Shown here: piece by piece, positions 338 through 53,252 of the stretch | How positions within the stretch are numbered: position 1 is the first letter of the stretch | How the letters are laid out: each line of letters opens with the position of its first letter | Source: Chromatiales bacterium | GTDB lineage: Bacteria > Pseudomonadota > Gammaproteobacteria > Chromatiales > Chromatiaceae | Direction: 5' to 3' | Length of the DNA: 54,234 bases | NCBI GenBank assembly: GCA_030145485.1 | Contig: JAQYVP010000017.1 | Location: 1 to 54,234, forward strand | Translations under genes and position numbers: made by a program | The notes under the pieces: generated by a model | Seen by the model: only the letters and a program-made list of their open reading frames with translations | Told to the model about the DNA's origin: nothing | The model's database searches: none

Positions 338-402
338 GTGACTATTCAGGACCTGTGGGATCGTTAGTCATTTGCTCATTTTAGAAGATGCTGAATAGTT
401 AC
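338..402. repeat. Short remnant of the 170-bp MITE family (family 1)
   Basis: The 65-bp segment starts GTGACTATTCAGG and ends AAGATGCTGAATAGTTAC, the same inverted ends as the full elements at 12937, 51661 and 53063, but the interior is deleted. It is flanked by AATGAATG and AATGATAG, an imperfect (6 of 8) target duplication. It sits between the convergent glycosyltransferase and gmhA. Confidence 0.65.
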
Positions 403-5254: not shown

Positions 5255-5493
5255 GTAACATCTCAATAAGTCCGTGTATTGTTCGAGTATGCGTAGTATC
5301 GGGATCAGCCTTTCAGGGACGCGTGAATACGTCCATGGTCGCTTCCGGCATCCTGCCTCTGGCGACATTAATACATCCATGTATGTCATAAGCTCTGATA
5401 AAACATCCCTGTTTTCGACCGCCATGGAAGGCGGAAAGCCCTGAAAAGCAGACTCCCAATCCTACTGCCTGCACGGTGCTATTGAGATGTTAC
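5255..5493. mobile_element. MITE, 239 bp, family 4 copy a (GTAACATCTCAATA ends)
   Basis: The element begins GTAACATCTCAATAAG and ends CTATTGAGATGTTAC, so the terminal inverted repeats are 13 bases. It is bordered by GTTTTTTT at 5247-5254 and again at 5494-5501, a perfect 8-bp target duplication. It has no open reading frame of its own. Its interior is the reverse complement of copy b (20627-20848), including the module with CATCCATGTATGTCATAA. It lies 36 bp upstream of the metY start and so separates msbA from the heptose genes. GTAA ends and 8-bp duplications are features of IS66-family transposition. Confidence 0.85.
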
Positions 5494-7728: not shown

Positions 7729-7740
7729 AGTTAGGGAGTC

Positions 7741-7943
7741 CCGGTCTCAGACTGACGAGGCATGAAAAAAACATTTTCTCTCGCCAAGGCGCTAAGACCG
7801 TAAAGGTTTTTCTTGGCGAGCTTTGCGCCTTCGCCTGCATGGACGTCAGGTGAGGGGCGTGAGCAGGACGTGGAAGCTTTGCGAGAGTGATTTTTGAAAA
7901 TTGACATATTTGTAAACATGTTAGTCACTCAAGGATTACTAGG
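7741..7943. repeat. Repeat family 2, copy a (CTCTCGC...GCGAGAG)
   Basis: The core at 7778-7887 starts CTCTCGCCAAGGCG and ends GCTTTGCGAGAG; it is flanked by arms GGTCTCAGACTGACGAGG on the left and TTGTAAACATG...AAGGATTACTAG on the right that also occur around copy d (17011-17260). The right arm overlaps the stop codon of gcvPB. It lies in the gap between gcvPB and dgkA. No reading frame is evident. Confidence 0.8.
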
Positions 7944-9393
7944 ATTCTGGTGGCTGCCAGCGCAGGTCCAGTTCACGCGCCGCTTTGACATCGTCGAGGC
8001 GTTTGACCGGCATGCTGTGCGGAGCGGATGTGACGATCTCCGGCTGGTGTTCAGCTTCATGGCGAATTTTTTGCATCACTTCGACAAAGTTGTCCAGCTC
8101 TTCCACAGACTCGGTCTCGGTCGGCTCGATCAGCAGGCATTCTGGAATCAGCAGTGGGAAATAGGTAGTTGGCGCATGCACACCGTAATCGAGCATGCGC
8201 TTGGCAAAATCCATGGTGCTGACACCGAGCTCCTTCGCCTCGTTTTTCAGCGTGATGATGAACTCATGACTGGCTCTGCGTTCGGGATAAGCGGCCTGAA
8301 AGCCTGAATCTATCAGCAGTTTCATCAGGTAGTTGGCATTCAGGGTTGCGTATTCGGCAACACGCACCATGCCCTCGCGTCCGAGCATTTTTGCGTAGAT
8401 GTAGGCGCGCAGCAAAACACCCGAGTTCCCTCCAAAGGCGGTGAGCTGACCGATGGATTGAGGACGCTCTGTTTGCGTCAGCCACTGGTAGCTGTCGCCG
8501 TCATAATCGACCATCGGAACCGGAAGGTAGGGGATCAGGCGTTCACTGACGCCGACAGGGCCGGCGCCGGGTCCGCCGCCTCCATGCGGTGTCGAAAAGG
8601 TCTTGTGCAAATTCATGTGGATGGCGTCAAAGCCCATATCGCCGGGACGCACCTTGCCGAGGATGGCATTGAGATTGGCGCCGTCATAGTAGAGCAGCCC
8701 TCCGGCCTGGTGGACCAGGTTGGAAATTTCACGGATACGGCGTTCAAAGACCCCGACTGTGGATGGGTTGGTGAGCATGATGCCGGCTGTCTGTGGTCCC
8801 AGCACACTTTTCAGGGCGTCGATGTCGATATCGCCATCCTTTTTGGTCGGGATTTCGCGCACCTTGTAACCACACATGACCGCAGTGGCGGGGTTGGTGC
8901 CGTGTGCAGCATCGGGGACGATAATTTCGCTGCGCCCAGTGTCGCCCCTGGCATCATGATAGGCTTTTATCATGGCGATGCCGGTAAATTCTCCCTGAGC
9001 GCCGGCTGCCGGTGTCAGTGAGACTTCGCGCATGCCGGTGACCTCTTTGAGGGTCTCCTGCAACTCGTACATGCAGGCCATGAACCCCTGGCTGTGGCTC
9101 TCCGGTGCATAGGGGTGGCGCGCCAGGAACCCGGGCAGCATCGCGAGCGTGTTGCAGCCGCGCGGATTGTACTTCATGGTGCATGAACCCAGCGGGTAGA
9201 AATTTGTGTCGATGGAGAAGTTGTTGCGCGACAGGCGCGTATAGTGGCGCACTGTCTGCATCTCCGACACTTCCGGCAGGGCGGCAGGCTGTTTGCGCCG
9301 CAGTGATTCCGGAATGGATCCCAGGGAGGCCGGGTTGCCGGGAGCCTGGGCAGTCGCACGTCGTCCGGATTGTGATTGTTCAAATATCAGCAT
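7939..9393 (-). CDS. gcvPB: Glycine dehydrogenase (decarboxylating) subunit 2
   Basis: A 484-residue PLP subunit of the split P-protein of the glycine cleavage system. It carries the PLP lysine in the segment [17 protein letters not shown] (about residues 265-282), the glycine-rich stretch characteristic of the C-terminal half of P-protein. With GcvPA it decarboxylates glycine and passes the aminomethyl group to lipoyl-GcvH. The start [10 protein letters not shown] is typical of the subunit. It is preceded by gcvPA, but 311 bp of repeat DNA separate them. Its TAG stop lies in the arm of a repeat. Confidence 0.96.
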
Positions 9394-9440
9394 GAGGTAA
9401 TGTCTTTTATTTATCTACAAGGTATGAAAGAGACTCTTTT

Positions 9441-9549
9441 CTCTCGCAGAGGCGCAAAGCTTCCGCGTCCTGCTTACGCCCCTGACCTACATCCATGTAG
9501 GCCAAGCTCGCCAAGAAAAACCTTTGCGATCTTGGCGCCTTGGCGAGAG
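9441..9549. repeat. Repeat family 2, copy b
   Basis: This copy begins CTCTCGCAGAGGCGCAAAGC and ends CGCCTTGGCGAGAG. It contains CCTACATCCATGTAGG, a short palindrome also present in modified form in other copies. It lies in the 311-bp gap between gcvPA and gcvPB, together with the 80-bp palindrome at 9571-9650. Confidence 0.8.
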
Positions 9550-9570
9550 TAATTATTAAAATCTGACTTA

Positions 9571-9650
9571 TGAGGTACTTGCAAAACCCCGTCATTCCAG
9601 CATGTTTTTAGCCGGAATGACGAATTTTGGGGTTTTGCAAGAGCCTCTCA
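9571..9650. repeat. 80-bp near-palindrome (CTTGCAAAACCCC ends), MITE-like
   Basis: The left half has CTTGCAAAACCCC then TCATTCC; the right half has GGAATGA then GGGGTTTTGCAAG, with outer ends TGAGG and CCTCTCA. The whole can fold into one long hairpin around the loop ATGTTTTTA. It carries no gene. Whether it is a mobile element or a transcription stop for gcvPA cannot be decided from one copy. Confidence 0.6.
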
Positions 9651-11607: not shown

Positions 11608-11715
11608 CTCTCGCCAGGAACGCCATGATTGCTAAGGTTTTTCTTGGCGAGCTTTGCGTCTTTGCGAGAGAAAATAATTTTTTTCATGCCTTGCCAGTCT
11701 GGGACTTGGTCTCGC
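11608..11715. repeat. Repeat family 2, copy c (short, inverted)
   Basis: The core 11608-11670 runs from CTCTCGCC to TTTGCGAGAG and lacks the central module of the longer copies. Beyond it, CATGCCTTGCCAGTCTGGGA...GGTCTCGCTAG is the reverse complement of the left arm of copies a and d, so this copy is inverted relative to them. It fills the gap between gcvT and gcvH. Confidence 0.75.
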
Positions 11716-11722
11716 TAGGTTA

Positions 11723-12936: not shown

Positions 12937-13108
12937 GCAACTATTCAGCATCTTGTCAGAAAGGCGAACCAAGTCACTGTTTTCGGGTATATCTTCCGGA
13001 AACGTATGAGGCAGGGATGCCGAGTCGAGCCTACAAGGATGTATTCACGGCGTTTTCCGGAAGATATACTTGGAGACAGTGACGGCCTTGCAAGTACTGA
13101 ATAGTTTA
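12937..13108. mobile_element. MITE, ~172 bp, family 1 copy A
   Basis: The ends are GCAACTATTCAGCATCTTG and CAAGTACTGAATAGTTTA. It is over 90% identical by eye to copy B (51661-51832) read in reverse. Long internal arms starting GTCACTG and ending CAGTGAC pair with each other. The 8-bp flanks do not match well (AAAATTGG / AAATTTAT), so this copy looks older. It occupies the gcvT-murJ divergent gap; the rest of this 469-bp gap holds the gcvT promoter and about 175 bp before murJ in which I see only a weak TATACT (-10-like) at 13217. Confidence 0.8.
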
Positions 13109-14825: not shown

Positions 14826-14902
14826 TGGCTGGTGAGTCAAAACTGCAGATTGTAGTTTACTACAGTAGCAATTTTCAATGCGGCAATGCAATAGAGTGTC
14901 GG

Positions 14903-15000
14903 TTTTTTAAAAGACTTTTACCACGAAGCACACGAAGACCACGAAGAATCAATTGGGTAAAAAATATCTTCGTGCTCTTCGTGGTGAGTTTTTCTCTACT
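14903..15000. repeat. CACGAAGA repeat, family 3 copy a
   Basis: The sequence ACTTTTACCACGAAGCACACG, then ACCACGAAGA, followed by TCTTCGTGCTCTTCGTGG forms an inverted repeat of a 9-base unit around an AT-rich centre. It lies between the convergent genes murJ and the FAD oxidase, where the hairpin could act as a two-way terminator. A second copy is at 22622-22732. Confidence 0.75.
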
Positions 15001-16412: not shown

Positions 16413-17020
16413 CTTTCAATAAATTCAAAGATCCCGATGACCTTTTTTACGCCACTGATGCCGCGCACCTGTGCGACGATTGCAGGCCCCTCTACGGCAG
16501 TCACCAGGCCGAGTAGATAGACATTTCCCAGCGTGGTGGAGATCTTGACCCGGGTTGGATCGAATCCTTTAATGCTGATCCGCCACAGTGAACCTTTGAT
16601 TTTACTGGTTAGGGCGGCATCCCTGCTGATATCCAGATTGCTTGCACGGGCTCTGATTTCAACTTCATTATAGACGGATTTGAGCTTGGGCTGTGTGCTG
16701 ACAAGATGTGCGAATTGATCTGCCAGTTGCCGGGATTCGGCTTGTCCAAAAATCAATACGCGGCGATTAAAACTGGTGACATGGATGCGTGAGTGTTCGG
16801 AAATTTCAGGATGATTGCTGAGAGTGGCCCTGGCGCGCAGTTTGATCTCCTGATCATCCATGACAGTTGCTGTCGTCCGTCTGTCGTGCATGGTTGAAGC
16901 AACGGTTGCTGTGGTTGCAACGATAGCAGCAGCGCAACTTTCAAGCAGTAGGAGGGAGATGAGTAGGGCGAGGCAGAGGACAAGTTTCCTTGCGAGAATC
17001 ATTCTAGAAATTTGACTCAT
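16409..17020 (-). CDS. BON-domain outer-membrane lipoprotein (DolP/YraP-like)
   Basis: A 203-residue predicted lipoprotein: hydrophobic signal ending LLLLESC (Cys ~29; Glu at -2 is a little unusual) followed by two BON domains, residues ~55-125 and ~130-200. The second ends VRGISGVKKVIGIFEFIE, a typical BON strand-helix. Homologues (DolP) bind anionic phospholipid at the division site and support outer-membrane integrity. The context rsmI / lpoA / yraN / dolP is the conserved enterobacterial order (diaA is missing). The chosen ATG at 17020 lies in the arm of a repeat; ATG 17002 is an alternative; neither has a clear ribosome site. Confidence 0.82.
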   Translation of the reverse strand: MSQISRMILARKLVLCLALLISLLLLESCAAAIVATTATVASTMHDRRTTATVMDDQEIKLRARATLSNHPEISEHSRIHVTSFNRRVLIFGQAESRQLADQFAHLVSTQPKLKSVYNEVEIRARASNLDISRDAALTSKIKGSLWRISIKGFDPTRVKISTTLGNVYLLGLVTAVEGPAIVAQVRGISGVKKVIGIFEFIER

Positions 17021-17260
17021 TTATAAAGATGTTGGCCATTTAAGGATTACTAGCGAGACCGTGTCTCAGACTGACAAGGCATGAAAAAATTATTTCTCTC
17101 GCAAAGCTTTCGCGTCCTGCTCACGCCCCTCACCTACGATCCCTGTAGGCGAAGACGCAAAGCACGCCAAGAAAACCCTTTGCGCTCTTTGCGCCTTGGC
17201 GAGAGATTTTTTTAAAACTTGACTCATTTGTAAACATGTTGGCCTTTCAAGAATTTCTAG
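17011..17260. repeat. Repeat family 2, copy d, with 43-bp direct arms
   Basis: The core 17096-17205 (CTCTCGCAAAGC...CTTGGCGAGAG) includes the central module with CACCTACGATCCCTGTAGG. It is flanked by direct repeats of 43 bp, 17011-17053 and 17218-17260, each running from TTGACTCATTT to TAG and differing at about eight positions. The right arm contains the yraN stop codon and the left arm the dolP start codon. Confidence 0.8.
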
Positions 17261-17613
17261 TACGCTGCTTCAAAGGCATTTTTGATCCACTCGATTTTGA
17301 TTTCCGGCTGGGCTACGATGGCAACGACGTCAAAGCGGCAGGGTTTGTCGGCACCATGTTGTTGCAGATAGAAATTTGCAGTTCGTGTCAGGCGGCTCTG
17401 TTTGGTGCGACTGATGGATGCCGCCGGGGTACCGTAAAGGCTGTTTTTTCGGTAGCGGACCTCGACAAAAACGAGATGATTCCTGTGCAGCATGATCAGG
17501 TCGATTTCACCCATACGGCACAGGAAGTTGCGTGTGACCAGTTTAAGTCCGTGCGATTTTAGATAATCGAGCGCATATTGCTCGGCTCGTCCGCCTGTCT
17601 CCCTGCTGTTCAC
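17257..17613 (-). CDS. yraN: YraN family protein (UPF0102, endonuclease-like fold)
   Basis: A 118-residue protein with the family core: GRAEQYALDYL near the start, GEIDLIMLHRNHLVFVEVRYR (split; ~35-55) with the Asp and Glu-x-Arg of the predicted PD-(D/E)xK nuclease active site, and an ending DVVAI. The function is not established. The start is GTG at 17613 with no strong ribosome site. It lies between lpoA and dolP as in enterobacteria. The stop falls in the arm of repeat family 2. Confidence 0.88.
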   Translation of the reverse strand: MNSRETGGRAEQYALDYLKSHGLKLVTRNFLCRMGEIDLIMLHRNHLVFVEVRYRKNSLYGTPAASISRTKQSRLTRTANFYLQQHGADKPCRFDVVAIVAQPEIKIEWIKNAFEAAY

Positions 17614-20626: not shown

Positions 20627-20848
20627 GGCATTTCTCAATAACTCCGTGCAGAAAAGCAGGGTTGGGACTTGCTTTTCAGGGCTGTATAAAACAGAGATGT
20701 TTTATCAGAGTTTATGACATACATGGATGTATTAATGTCGCCAGAGGCAGGATGCCGGAAGCGACCAGGGATGTATTCATGCGTCCCTGAAAGGCTGGTC
20801 CTGACCCTGCGCAAACCCAACTAATGCACGTGACGATTGAGAAGTTAC
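20627..20848. mobile_element. MITE, 222 bp, family 4 copy b
   Basis: The left end TTTCTCAATAACTCCGTGC and right end GATTGAGAAGTTAC are inverted copies (left terminus partly decayed). The flanks ATTTCGGG and ATTTCAGA match at 6 of 8 positions, an aged target duplication. The interior matches copy a (5255-5493) in reverse, including GACATACATGGATGTATTAA and GGCAGGATGCCGGAAGC. It occupies most of the 363-bp gap before the HerA-like gene; the rest shows no other signal. Confidence 0.8.
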
Positions 20849-20870
20849 ATTTCAGACGAGAATTTTAAAC

Positions 20871-22535: not shown

Positions 22536-22621
22536 ATAAAGTTGGCAGTCGTCAGTTGGCAGTATGTAAAAGAATGTCGGGCGGAGAACGAAGCCACCTA
22601 AAACCTACCTATATAGTGTTG

Positions 22622-22732
22622 ATATTTTAAAAGACTTTTACCACGAAGCTCACGAAGACCACGAAGAATCAACTGGCTACAAAATATCTTCGTGCTCTTC
22701 GTGTCCTTCGTGGTGAGTATCTCTCTGCATTT
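22622..22732. repeat. CACGAAGA repeat, family 3 copy b
   Basis: This copy has the same opening TTTTAAAAGACTTTTACC and CACGAAG units as copy a (14903-15000), but the right arm contains one additional 9-base unit (GTCCTTCGT). It lies between the HerA-like gene and the rnpB promoter. Confidence 0.75.
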
Positions 22733-44844: not shown

Positions 44845-44890
44845 CCGGGCCGGTTTCCTTCGTTTGGACAACGTCTTACGTCGATAGCAT

Positions 44891-45110
44891 GTAACTTCTC
44901 AATATGTCCGTGTGTGCAGATAGAGTGACAGCCCTTGCCAAATCGTGGCTAGAAGGCCACTCCTACATCTGACGTCACATAGAGCCGTGGGAGCGGTCTT
45001 CCGGCCGCCATGGATGGTGGAAGTGCCGGCAACGCAGGAGCATTTCCCGGCTGACCGCGATTAAATGCGATAGCATTTTATTCACATACACGGAGTTATT
45101 GAGAAGTTAC
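44891..45110. mobile_element. MITE, 220 bp, family 4 copy c
   Basis: The ends are GTAACTTCTCAATATGTCCG and CGGAGTTATTGAGAAGTTAC; the flanks GATAGCAT (44883-44890) and GATAGCAT (45111-45118) are a perfect 8-bp duplication. Its interior differs from copies a and b: it contains GTGGCTAGAAGGCCACTCC and GGGAGCGGTCTTCCGGCCGC. It was inserted at the very end of recN and now supplies its TAA stop. Confidence 0.88.
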
Positions 45111-46765
45111 GATAGCATCTCCCGAGCGTGTTCGATGGTGCGTTCTGTCATTTCGACGCCTCCCAGCATGCGTGCAACTTCATCGATCCGCTGCCTCTCT
45201 TCAAGAGGGGTGATGCGGGTTTGTGTGGAGTTGCTGTTACGTTGTTTTTCAACAAGCAGGTGATGGTGGGCCTGTGCGGCTACCTGCGGCAGGTGGGTGA
45301 CACACAGGATTTGCCGCTCCTCCCCAAGCCTGCGAAGCAGATTGCCGACTATTTCTGCAACACCGCCGCCAATACCGACATCCACTTCATCGAAGATCAA
45401 TGTCGGGACTTTCCCAAGACCGATTGTGGCGACCTGTATGGCGAGACTGATGCGTGAGAGTTCACCGCCGGAGGCTGCCTTGCTGAGTGGTTGCTGCGGC
45501 TGTCCGGGGTTGGCGCTGAAATAAAAGGCAATCGTTTCGACACCATGTGCCGTCGGTTGCTGCAGTTCGATGGGTTCGAGTCTTACACTGAAACGCCCAT
45601 CCGCTATCGACAGCTGCTGCATGGTTGTGGAAACCTGCGAATCCAGTAATTTTGCAGCCTTGTGCCTTGAACGGCTCAGCCTGCCGGCGAGTTTGTCCCA
45701 CTGCTGCTGATGCTCGTCGATCTGTAGCTGCAAATTATCCAGCTGTTCATCACTGTGCAGCAGTTTTTTCAGTTGTTGTTGCAGAGTGACGAGATGAAGA
45801 GGCAGCCCGGCTGGTTCAAGCTGATGTTTGCGGGCAAGCTGCAGGATACTGCTGAGACGCAGGTCGACGCTGGCGAGCCTTGCCGGGTCGAGCTGGGCAG
45901 CATCAGCGTATTGGTGCAGTGTGTGCGAGCACTCTTCAATTTCAATCATTGCACTTTGCAGCATCTCCAGGCTGTCACCCGGTAGTGTGTCAATTTCACG
46001 CAGCTCCTCGAGGATGGATATGCTGCGTTGCAGCAGTTGTGCGGCGCCATTGTCATGATAGAGAGTGTTGAGCAGCTCTTCGCAGCGTTCACGCAGCAGT
46101 CCGGCATTGCTGAGGCGGCGTTGTTCGGACTCGAGTTGCTGCCACTCATGCTCCTCGACAGCCAGATTCTCAATTTCATCGATTTGAAAGCGTAGCAGCT
46201 CAATTTGAGAACGGCGATCCTGCTGCTTCATTTGCAGGTTGGAAAGCTCCCTGACCACAGTGTTCCATTGCCGCCACTGCTGCTGCAATTTGTTCAGTAG
46301 TGCTGCATTTCCGGCATAGGCATCGAGAAGCTCGCGTTGATAGGGCGCTTTAAGCAGGGATTGATGGGCGTGCTGTCCATGGATGTCGACCAGTTTCTCA
46401 CCCAGTTGGGTGAGAGAGGTGAGCGTTACCGGCGTGTTGTTGATAAAAGCACGGGAGCGTCCTTTGCTTGTAAGAACACGGCGAAGCAGGCAGTCGCTGG
46501 AGTCGTCCAGCAACTCATGCTCACGCAGCCACTGTTTTGCCTCGGCGTTGTCAGTGAGGTCGAAAATGGCAGTAATCTCGGCTTTTTCATGGCCGTTGCG
46601 AATCAGGCTGATATCCGCCTTATTGCCGAGGGCGAGTCCGAGAGAGTCAATCAGGATGGATTTTCCTGCGCCGGTTTCACCGGTGAGAGCGCTCATGCCT
46701 GAATCAAGCTCAAGTGACAGCTCATCGATGGTCACAAGATAACGGATGTGGACGGAGGTCAGCAT
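45107..46765 (-). CDS. recN: DNA repair protein RecN
   Basis: A 552-residue SMC-like ATPase for double-strand break repair. Walker A TGETGAGKSILIDSL (~30-44), long coiled coil (~150-370), and C-terminal signature ASGGELSRISLA followed by Walker B PTLIFDEVDVGIGG (~455-468). The C-terminus EHAREMLS is encoded up to a MITE whose terminal GTAAC provides the stop; the DNA on the far side of the MITE (ATG CTA TCG ACG TAA, read on the minus strand) shows that the gene once ended one residue later. Confidence 0.96.
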   Translation of the reverse strand: MLTSVHIRYLVTIDELSLELDSGMSALTGETGAGKSILIDSLGLALGNKADISLIRNGHEKAEITAIFDLTDNAEAKQWLREHELLDDSSDCLLRRVLTSKGRSRAFINNTPVTLTSLTQLGEKLVDIHGQHAHQSLLKAPYQRELLDAYAGNAALLNKLQQQWRQWNTVVRELSNLQMKQQDRRSQIELLRFQIDEIENLAVEEHEWQQLESEQRRLSNAGLLRERCEELLNTLYHDNGAAQLLQRSISILEELREIDTLPGDSLEMLQSAMIEIEECSHTLHQYADAAQLDPARLASVDLRLSSILQLARKHQLEPAGLPLHLVTLQQQLKKLLHSDEQLDNLQLQIDEHQQQWDKLAGRLSRSRHKAAKLLDSQVSTTMQQLSIADGRFSVRLEPIELQQPTAHGVETIAFYFSANPGQPQQPLSKAASGGELSRISLAIQVATIGLGKVPTLIFDEVDVGIGGGVAEIVGNLLRRLGEERQILCVTHLPQVAAQAHHHLLVEKQRNSNSTQTRITPLEERQRIDEVARMLGGVEMTERTIEHAREMLS

Positions 46766-46812
46766 TTAACGAGAGCAGGTTTGGAACTGATGTCAAAAAA
46801 AGTTCTTGTAGT

Positions 46813-46922
46813 CTCTCGCCAAGACGCGAAGCTCGCCAAGAAAAAATCTTTGCGTCTTTGCGTCTTCGCCTGCATGGATGCAGGTGAGGGGCGTGAGCAG
46901 GGATGCGGAAGCTTTGCGAGAG
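46813..46922. repeat. Repeat family 2, copy e
   Basis: The copy runs CTCTCGCCAAGACGCGAAGC to GCTTTGCGAGAG and includes GCATGGATGCAGGTGAGGGG and GAGCAGGGATGCGGAAGC. It lies in the 248-bp gap upstream of recN; nothing else was seen there except weak AT-rich sequence. Confidence 0.8.
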
Positions 46923-47013
46923 TCATAAATAGAAGTTGATTCATTAGTGCAATTGTAGAATGTTCATGGATTAGTTGGAGCTGTTTACAGTGGCTTTGTA
47001 ATTCTTTATCAGG

Positions 47014-51600: not shown

Positions 51601-51660
51601 GTGCTTGATAGTGATTGATGATTGACGGATTCTGCAGTAAGGTTTTAGATTACTTTATTT

Positions 51661-51832
51661 GTAACTATTCAGTACTTGCAAGATCGTCACTGTCTCCAGG
51701 CATATCTTCCGGAAAACGCCGTGAATACATCCATGTAGGCTCGACTCGGCATCCCTGCCTCATACGTTTCCGGCAGATATACCCGAAAACAGTGACTTGG
51801 TTCACCTCTCTGACAAGATGCTGAATAGTTAC
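51661..51832. mobile_element. MITE, 172 bp, family 1 copy B
   Basis: The ends are GTAACTATTCAG and CTGAATAGTTAC, a perfect 12-base inverted repeat. The flanks CTTTATTT (51653-51660) and CTTTATTT (51833-51840) are an exact 8-bp duplication. It is inverted relative to copies A and C and nearly identical to A. It lies between the fccB terminator and metZ. Confidence 0.9.
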
Positions 51833-51878
51833 CTTTATTTTTGTTAGTTATCCTCGATAAATGATGAGGGAGATTTTG

Positions 51879-53060
51879 ATGACAGACCATCCGCAATGGG
51901 GTCAGGCAACCCTGGCGATACGTACCGGCCATCAGCGTACGGCTGAAGGCGAACACTCGGAGCCGATATTCCCCACCTCGAGCTTTGTCTTCGATAGTGC
52001 GCAGGAGGCTGCTGCACGTTTTTCAGGAGATGAGCCTGGCAACATCTATTCACGCTTTACAAATCCTACGGTCGCAGTTTTTGAGCAGCGTCTTGCGGCG
52101 ATGGAGGGTGGTGAATCTTGCGTCGCAACAGCGTCAGGCATGGCGGCGATTCTCGCTACCTGCATGGGGCTTCTCGAGCACGGAGATCATATTGTCAGCT
52201 CCCGCAGTATATTTGGCTCCACGAATATACTCTTCAGTAAATATCTCGAACGTTTTGGTATTACAACCACTTATGTGGATTTGAAAGAGGCGGCGGCCTG
52301 GAACGAGGCGATTCGCCCGAATACCAGGATGCTGTTTCTGGAAACACCATCCAATCCGATGACTGAAGTTGGCGATATTGCTGCGCTTTCTGTAATTGCG
52401 CACCAAAGTAACGCCATACTCGTTGTCGATAACTGCTTTTGCACACCGGTGCTGCAGCGTCCTCTGGAATTGGGTGCAGATGTGGTGGTGCATTCGGCGA
52501 CAAAATATATCGATGGCCAGGGGCGCTGCATGGGTGGCGCTGTTGTTGGTGACAAGCAGCTTGTCGGGGAGGAGGTATATGGCGTATTGCGCACTGCCGG
52601 ACCGACCATGAGCGCCTTCAATGCATGGGTATTTCTCAAGGGTCTTGAAACACTGCAGTTGCGCATGCGTCAGCATTGCGAAAATGCACAAAAACTCGCC
52701 GGGTGGCTCGAGAGGCATCCCCGTATCGAGCATGTCTACTATCCGGGGCTGGATTCACACCCGCAGAAGGCGCTGATGCAGCAGCAGCAGACAGCGGCGG
52801 GAGGGATACTGTCGTTTGAGCCTGTCGGTGGACAGCAGGCGGCGTGGCGTATCATGGATAATCAACAGTTGATGTCGATAACAGCCAACCTGGGTGATAC
52901 AAAAACGACCATCACACACCCCGGTTCGACAACACATGCACGTCTTACGGATGAGGAGCGCGTGGTTGCTGGAATCACTCCCGGGCTAGTGCGTATCGGG
53001 GTAGGTCTGGAGAATGTGGAGGACCTGATTGCGGATCTGGACGTGGCTCTAAAAAAATAA
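51879..53060 (+). CDS. metZ: O-succinylhomoserine sulfhydrylase
   Basis: A 393-residue Cys/Met-metabolism PLP enzyme. NIYSRFTNPTVAVFEQRLAA (55-74 or so), the PLP lysine in VVHSATKYIDGQGR (Lys ~208) and TLGDTKTTITHPGSTTHARL-like C-terminal segments (read here as LGDTKTTITHPGSTTH) are present. The KYIDGQGRCMGG sequence is characteristic of MetZ, which uses sulfide directly to make homocysteine. ATG 51879 is chosen with AGGGAG seven bases upstream; the frame begins at 51861. MITEs in opposite orientation lie on each side, the right one starting two bases after the stop codon. Confidence 0.93.
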   Translation: MTDHPQWGQATLAIRTGHQRTAEGEHSEPIFPTSSFVFDSAQEAAARFSGDEPGNIYSRFTNPTVAVFEQRLAAMEGGESCVATASGMAAILATCMGLLEHGDHIVSSRSIFGSTNILFSKYLERFGITTTYVDLKEAAAWNEAIRPNTRMLFLETPSNPMTEVGDIAALSVIAHQSNAILVVDNCFCTPVLQRPLELGADVVVHSATKYIDGQGRCMGGAVVGDKQLVGEEVYGVLRTAGPTMSAFNAWVFLKGLETLQLRMRQHCENAQKLAGWLERHPRIEHVYYPGLDSHPQKALMQQQQTAAGGILSFEPVGGQQAAWRIMDNQQLMSITANLGDTKTTITHPGSTTHARLTDEERVVAGITPGLVRIGVGLENVEDLIADLDVALKK

Positions 53061-53062
53061 AA

Positions 53063-53233
53063 GAAACTATTCAACATCTTCTTAAACCAGCGAAATAAGT
53101 CACTGCTATCGGGTGTATCTGGAGGAAACGTCGGAGGCAGGGATGCCGAAGCGAGCCTACAGGGATGTATTCACGGCATTTTCCGGAAGATATGCCCGAT
53201 AGCAGTGACGACCCCGTAGGTGCTGCATATTAC
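53063..53233. mobile_element. MITE, 171 bp, family 1 copy C
   Basis: The ends are GAAACTATTCAACATCTTC and GGTGCTGCATATTAC (more diverged). The flanks AAATAAAA (53055-53062) and AAATAAAA (53234-53241) are an exact duplication; the left one includes the metZ stop. The internal stem GTCACTGCTATCGGG / CCCGATAGCAGTGAC is perfect. It lies directly upstream of the rRNA promoter. Confidence 0.88.
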
Positions 53234-53252
53234 AAATAAAAGTACAAAGCGG

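Follow-up and report, generated by a model that had tools for sequence, protein, structure and literature searches.

A transposable repeat with IS66-type ends carries a strand-specific three-way-junction tip with CsrA-like loops that recurs across Gammaproteobacteria

The Yersinia palindromic sequences YPAL, or RU-2, were reportedly described by De Gregorio et al. in 2006 and by Delihas in 2007, and bacterial short palindromic repeats are usually treated genus by genus, as DNA oddities. PMC2229807 reports that YPAL elements are co-transcribed and possibly affect RNA stability, and gives them duplications of 3–26 bp and internal inverted repeats. The TIR repeats of Stenotrophomonas maltophilia are, according to Di Nocera et al. 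2013 (PMC3733652), self-complementary and found in dimers. The 54,234-nucleotide stretch of DNA analysed here (the window) corresponds to contig C32 in a draft genome of 3.02 Mb and contains three copies of a ~172-bp hairpin element, of which the genome has ~22 more or less complete copies. YPAL/RU-2 (~168 bp) resembles this element in being palindromic, intergenic and mobile, and its sequence (agcctacatggatgtatttacggcgtc in Table 1b of PMC2759123) contains the tip that also caps the hairpin of the window element; its stem sequence is unrelated, and its duplications and internal inverted repeats differ from the 8-bp duplications and IS66-type ends of the latter. REP/BIME sequences and the S. 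maltophilia TIR repeats resemble the tip hairpins described below in being abundant intergenic palindromes that often lie in inverted pairs; the tip hairpins are much longer than REPs, and the likeness to the S. maltophilia TIR family is drawn from its published description.

The 172-bp element is a non-autonomous transposable element, that is, a miniature inverted-repeat transposable element (MITE). The aligned copies (53 sequences from this genome and its relatives) span GTAACTATTCAG to CTGAATAGTTAC, with 12-bp ends and without coding sequence, and among the 44 copies with both ends, an 8-bp target duplication was perfect in 21 and matched at 7 or more of the 8 bases in 30, compared with an expected 1.3 when flanks were randomly re-paired. 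Insertion targets are AT-rich. The IS66 family typically has ends that start with GTAA and duplicates 8 bp of target, and the ends are common to IS66 transposase genes as well: in the same genome, an IS66 transposase C terminus (PF03050, 26.3 bits, above cut-off) ends ~30 bp before CTGAATAGTTAC; in two relatives (G019 and G020), ~1.5-kb elements of the IS66 family are bounded by GTAACTATTCA[G/C], with perfect 8-bp duplications CCTGCGAC and TCGTCATC at L329 and L340; and in a relative's IS66-family element (L331), an open frame of 488 amino acids is flanked by two GTAACTATTCAG ends. A Pfam search of a decayed IS66 remnant in G017 gave no match. On the strength of the common ends and the 8-bp duplications, we infer that an IS66-family transposase probably mobilises the MITE in trans. 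Compared with IS66-family transposons and their MITEs, the window element lacks a transposase and bears a structured, RNA-like cargo. That cargo can be lost, as a 65-bp deletion derivative at 338–402 (minus strand; flanking 8-mers 6/8 identical) keeps both IS66-type ends while the hairpin is gone, and further closely spaced end pairs occur in contigs C106 and C154, indicating that the hairpin is dispensable for recognisable ends.

Some further repeats were noted alongside. In G020, repeated IS66-family copies with the common ends GTAACTATTCA[G/C] (L329, L335 and L342) include several that lie 838 bp apart and have the same flank GTGCACGC. The window also contains another hairpin MITE at 44891–45110 (44883–45118 with its flanks), with the ends GTAACTTCTCAATA/TATTGAGAAGTTAC, a perfect 8-bp duplication GATAGCAT and a predicted fold of −101 kcal/mol (z = −8); a dispersed repeat family of TTTGCGCCTTGGCGAGAG-type units in both orientations (7732–7949, 9418–9575, 11621–11718, 16977–17267 and 46812–46948); and a repeat containing ACCACGAAG-type units, whose copies at 14891–14997 and 22611–22726 are 91% identical.

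Copy A of the MITE occupies 12937–13108 of the window, with the ends GCAACTATTCAG and CTGAATAGTTTA, an IS66-type left terminal inverted repeat at 12937–12948 (plus strand, consensus GTAACTATTCAG) and its right counterpart at 13097–13108 (minus strand); the flanking 8-mers AAAATTGG and AAATTTAT are 5/8 identical, a decayed target duplication. We refer to the strand that carries GGAUG, which in copy A is the plus strand, as T′, and to the opposite strand as T. On T′ the arms of the long stem P1, each of 30 nucleotides, lie at 12973–13002 and 13054–13083 and form 26 Watson-Crick and 4 G-U pairs. Copy B (51661–51832, minus strand) has a perfect 8-bp target duplication CTTTATTT (51653–51660 and 51833–51840) and is antisense to both flanking genes. 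Copy C (53063–53233, plus strand; target duplication AAATAAAA at 53055–53062 and 53234–53241) lies in sense directly behind the stop codon of the gene at 51861–53060. The initial annotation of this DNA had described stems whose mismatches were all G-U wobbles on one strand. A base-by-base check shows that this is literally so for copy A, where the four differences between the arms (pairs 9, 11, 13 and 14) are each G-U or U-G on the plus strand and A-C on the minus strand. Copy B does have its wobbles in the claimed element sense (pairs 9, 11, 13 and 16) but also one extra non-wobble mismatch (pair 23), and copy C, in which CTATCGGG and CCCGATAG form the Watson-Crick replacement that had been claimed, has in addition two wobbles (pairs 16 and 17) and a 3-bp internal loop (pairs 23–25), so that the "all" has to be confined to copy A. 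Predicted RNA folding favoured the GGAUG strand over the other strand in all three copies (−78.7 against −69.5 kcal/mol for A, −80.2 against −64.2 for B and −63.6 against −55.6 for C), and so did folding with DNA parameters (−40.6 against −37.7, −39.2 against −33.4 and −33.9 against −28.9, respectively). The hairpin fold has a z score of −9.8 relative to dinucleotide shuffles and is thus not due to chance.

The interior of the MITE is a long stem capped by a ~64-nucleotide tip that forms a three-way junction. Read 5′ to 3′ on T′, the variable long stem P1 is outermost and is followed by the hairpin P2, a short junction, the hairpin P3 and the return to P1. P2 consists of YG, a U-N mismatch, a variable helix of ~7 bp and an ANGGAN loop with a C-G closing pair, and P3 of GCC, a variable 3-bp helix and a second ANGGAN loop with a C-G closing pair, followed by UUYAC and GGC. 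We built a covariance model, R1, from 53 tips picked for differing stems; it places the tip of copy A at 12997–13059 of the plus strand (70.4 bits, E = 5e-15). Among the tips, 94.7% of 1109 cells are paired, and columns 7 (C/U) and 34 (G/A) covary without exception (36 CG and 17 UA). Double changes occur at 17 of the 21 pairs, amounting to 290 cells compared with 34–71 in slid-partner controls. The loops are the most conserved part of the tip, and their sequences, together with the junction, are kept across the class.

The central ~45 nucleotides of the tip are also found alone in relatives, without IS66-type ends and on stems unrelated in sequence. A pattern scan of named genomes located the tip in Stenotrophomonas, Xanthomonas, Rheinheimera, Marinobacter, Microbulbifer and Methylomicrobium and further in Yersinia, Sodalis, Moritella, Ectothiorhodospira, Alcanivorax, Shewanella and many uncultured Gammaproteobacteria. 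R1 matched in 74 of 370 sampled Gammaproteobacteria genomes, from 63 genera, and when 249 genomes were drawn from the whole phylum, all 17 hits fell in Gammaproteobacteria. Copy numbers can be high: S. maltophilia D457 has 106 tips, Methylomicrobium sp. wino1 has 124 and another genome has at least 150. In S. maltophilia D457 (L308–L321), the tip hairpins occur as inverted dimers ~250–350 bp apart in which T′ always faces outward; as a side observation, the spacers of these dimers are variable and often have terminator-like hairpins and CTGTCGAA/TTCGACAG borders.

In Yersinia and Sodalis (L093, L192 and L185), R1 matches score 68.7–76.4 bits and have the same tip structure; YPAL is a described member of a wider tip-bearing group. 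The sole overlapping Rfam family is Ysr224 (RF02770), which covers the tip in Yersinia and Sodalis, where three copies reach the gathering score; the window copies fall below it, and an Rfam scan of the window at gathering thresholds returned 16S rRNA and RNase P only. Ysr224 is annotated as a Yersinia small RNA on the T strand, opposite to the strand whose fold is selected (see below). Two other candidate identities were set aside: the TwoAYGGAY RNA motif gave no Rfam match at E ≤ 1 in 16 loci, most of which have a tip, and, for a REP/RAYT (Y1 transposase) or TIR-of-Y1 system, only 1 of 30 Y1 loci in tip-bearing genomes has a tip nearby, the tip hairpins being away from the Y1 transposase in the other 29.

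Next, we consider the strand on which the stem folds. For the window family, we tabulated 47 copies, from the same genome and relatives, by 30 stem pairs, and read on T′, the resulting 1410 cells comprise 1172 Watson-Crick pairs, 133 G-U pairs, 8 A-C mismatches and 97 others. Pair 4 (AT in 29 copies, GC in 12, GT in 4 and A-C in none) covaries through a G-U intermediate, and several pairs have shifted from A-U to G-C or from C-G to U-A by way of G-U, with A-C hardly ever as the intermediate. The bias extends beyond this family, as the stem bodies of 131 hairpins found via the tip, many of them with unrelated stems, have 151 G-U pairs and 24 A-C mismatches on T′; with one representative for each of 65 stem clusters, the ratio is 81 to 10, and T′ is favoured in 41 clusters compared with 5 that favour T (sign test, p = 4e-8). 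The G-U excess spans the stem, from roughly 2 to 28 bp from the tip, and falls to ~1:1 past the stem ends, where the alignment is noise; this provides an internal control for the polarity. The initial annotation had suggested that the folded form of one strand, as RNA or as single-stranded DNA, was under selection and had named, as its tests, covariation in a larger alignment and a difference in wobble frequency between the strands. Covariation is present, both in the double changes of the tip and at stem pair 4, and the wobbles are unequal between the two senses in all three comparisons (133:8, 151:24 and 81:10). Because strand-specific wobbles and covariation together indicate selection for folding of T′, we conclude that the folded T′ strand has been under selection, as had been suggested.

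The two loops of the tip resemble binding sites of the global regulator CsrA/RsmA. The SELEX consensus of CsrA, as quoted in PMC7652899, is RUACARGGAUGU; RsmE/CsrA requires an ANGGAN hexaloop, and a CsrA dimer bridges sites 10–63 nucleotides apart, with an optimum above 18 (PMC7652899). The tip matches these sequence features, as GGA is presented in a hairpin loop, as an ANGGAN hexaloop in both hairpins, and the two sites lie within 10–63 nucleotides of one another. In copy A, the P2 hexaloop AGGGAU is at 13013–13018 (GGA at 13015–13017) and the P3 hexaloop AAGGAU at 13035–13040 (GGA at 13037–13039, 22 nucleotides from the former), both on the plus strand, and UACAAGGAUGU agrees with the SELEX consensus at 11 of 12 positions. 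Across the 53 tips used for R1, GGA is present in both loops of every one, and the loop A in 53/53 for P3 and 44/53 for P2; the closing C-G is nearly invariant in both loops, and the two N positions are free. As the A and GGA of the first loop were largely fixed by our search pattern, the second loop, outside that pattern, is the unbiased sample, and it has GGA in 136 and the full CAnGGAnG in 100 of 137 tips. The two GGA motifs lie 23 nucleotides apart in 90 of 125 tips and 22–24 in 114. Further, csrA was found in 73 of the 74 tip-bearing genomes and in 251 of the 296 others (p = 3e-4), an association confounded by lineage and genome size. We also note that the genome of the window (G000, 3 Mb) has ten CsrA (PF02599) matches, compared with one or two in most genomes of the class. 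Compared with CsrA/RsmA-binding RNAs of the CsrB/RsmZ type, the tips are alike in having GGA in the loops of short hairpins, the C[ANGGAN]G hexaloop and the bridging distance; they differ in that binding is here predicted and in that they sit on dispersed mobile repeats with a long stem, not in one small RNA gene. Among the open-access papers searched, we found none that connects CsrA to palindromic repeats, to MITEs or to YPAL.

A second repeat family has more such loops. Family 2 is present in dozens of copies in the same genome, with IS66-like ends (GTAACTTCTCAA/TTGAGAAGTTAC), and has two copies in the window: one at 5255–5450 (minus strand; outer limit approximate), which has an end GTAACATCTCAATA and, on the minus strand, four C[A(N)GGAN]G hairpins, and one at 20671–20849 (plus strand), where the limits are those of the alignment. 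Its loops follow one another as AAAAC[AGGGAU]GUUUU, UAC[AUGGAU]GUA, GGC[AGGAU]GCC and C[ANGGAN]G. With four sites, compared with two in the MITE (family 1) and several in CsrB/RsmZ-type RNAs, the family-2 array looks, by analogy, rather like a small CsrB/RsmZ.

We favour, with moderate confidence, the reading that the element is a MITE carrying a strand-specific structured module, for which a dual CsrA/RsmA binding site, predicted from the loops, is the most likely identity. In this scheme, an IS66-family transposase would cross-mobilise the MITE in trans, and the cargo would be a long, freely drifting but compensated stem that displays the conserved three-way-junction tip. The tip would be read on T′ only, as two C[ANGGAN]G hairpin loops ~23 nucleotides apart; T′ RNA would arise by read-through transcription or from other promoters, and a CsrA/RsmA dimer could bridge its two loops. 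Its effect may be that of a dispersed CsrA/Rsm decoy or, when the element lies inside a transcript, of a CsrA-responsive switch; we propose both from sequence features. We hold more tentatively the broader idea that unrelated transposable repeats converged on, or inherited, one CsrA/RsmA-docking RNA module, so that mobile hairpins numbering from tens to over a hundred per gammaproteobacterial genome would tap the Csr network and make up a dispersed, transposon-borne Csr decoy system.

Several observations count against the CsrA reading. Tip elements have no orientation bias to genes (by simple ORF calls, 23 tandem sense, 24 antisense, 18 convergent and 10 divergent); copies with T′ antisense to the upstream gene (36:4) have the same wobble bias as those with T′ in sense (30:5); changes private to a single copy in the window family, few as they are, are unbiased (4 G-U and 3 A-C); Ysr224 is annotated on T; and no promoter was identified inside the element. 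Since the polarity is independent of the orientation of the neighbouring gene, it is not simply that of a hairpin in the local gene's mRNA, and so the selecting event would involve either RNA made from promoters other than that of the gene or a process linked to the element's propagation. The unbiased private changes likewise fit selection on propagating copies better than selection on each resident copy.

The foremost alternative, which we regard as unlikely but ahead of the remaining two, is that T′ was selected as a single-stranded DNA hairpin recognised by a transposase or recombinase that acts on single strands, HUH-type or otherwise, as in REP/RAYT systems. DNA hairpins tolerate G-T but not A-C mismatches, so that the polarity would reflect which DNA strand is recognised; this accommodates a polarity that does not depend on local transcription, the same strand preference under DNA fold parameters, and private changes that are unbiased as if folding counted for propagation, and the outward-facing inverted dimers of S. 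maltophilia resemble REP/REPIN arrangements. Yet a tip is near just one of the 30 Y1 transposase loci, the 8-bp duplication of the window family points to movement of double-stranded DNA by a DDE enzyme, and this alternative gives no reason for two ANGGAN loops at a fixed spacing with free N positions. It is on account of the loop sequences that we take the polymer under selection to be probably RNA rather than single-stranded DNA.

We give a lower probability still to a cis-acting mRNA element, in which a long hairpin in the 3′ or 5′ UTR would stabilise, process or attenuate the host transcript and the loops would have no particular significance. The elements are intergenic, copy C lies in sense right behind a stop codon, and the co-transcription and possible RNA-stability effect reported for YPAL in PMC2229807 would suit such a role; against this stand the unbiased orientation to genes, the equal wobble polarity in antisense copies, the position of copy B antisense to both neighbours and the fact that the loops are the most conserved part. 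Finally, palindromes can correct themselves during replication, and deletion derivatives such as that at 338–402 do occur, but a neutral palindrome in the DNA, maintained in perfect form by template switching, with wobbles from strand-biased mutation, is disfavoured and very improbable, as random orientation relative to genes removes any transcription-linked bias, the 6- to 17-fold asymmetry is far above usual strand biases and stops at the stem ends, and the loop sequences and the junction show class-wide conservation.

Returning to the preferred reading, a MITE with a probable dual CsrA/RsmA binding site, we note that the individual repeat families are partly known, while the common tip, its polarity and its CsrA-type loops appear to be undescribed in the literature searched. 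One tip structure is common to Yersinia YPAL, to repeats in Stenotrophomonas, Rheinheimera, Methylomicrobium and others, and to the IS66-type MITE of the window. For bacterial hairpin repeats, the per-strand G-U:A-C ratio offers a simple and general test of function. If CsrA/RsmA binds the tip, a global regulator would receive genome-wide input from mobile elements, and Csr buffering would differ between species that are a hundred copies apart.
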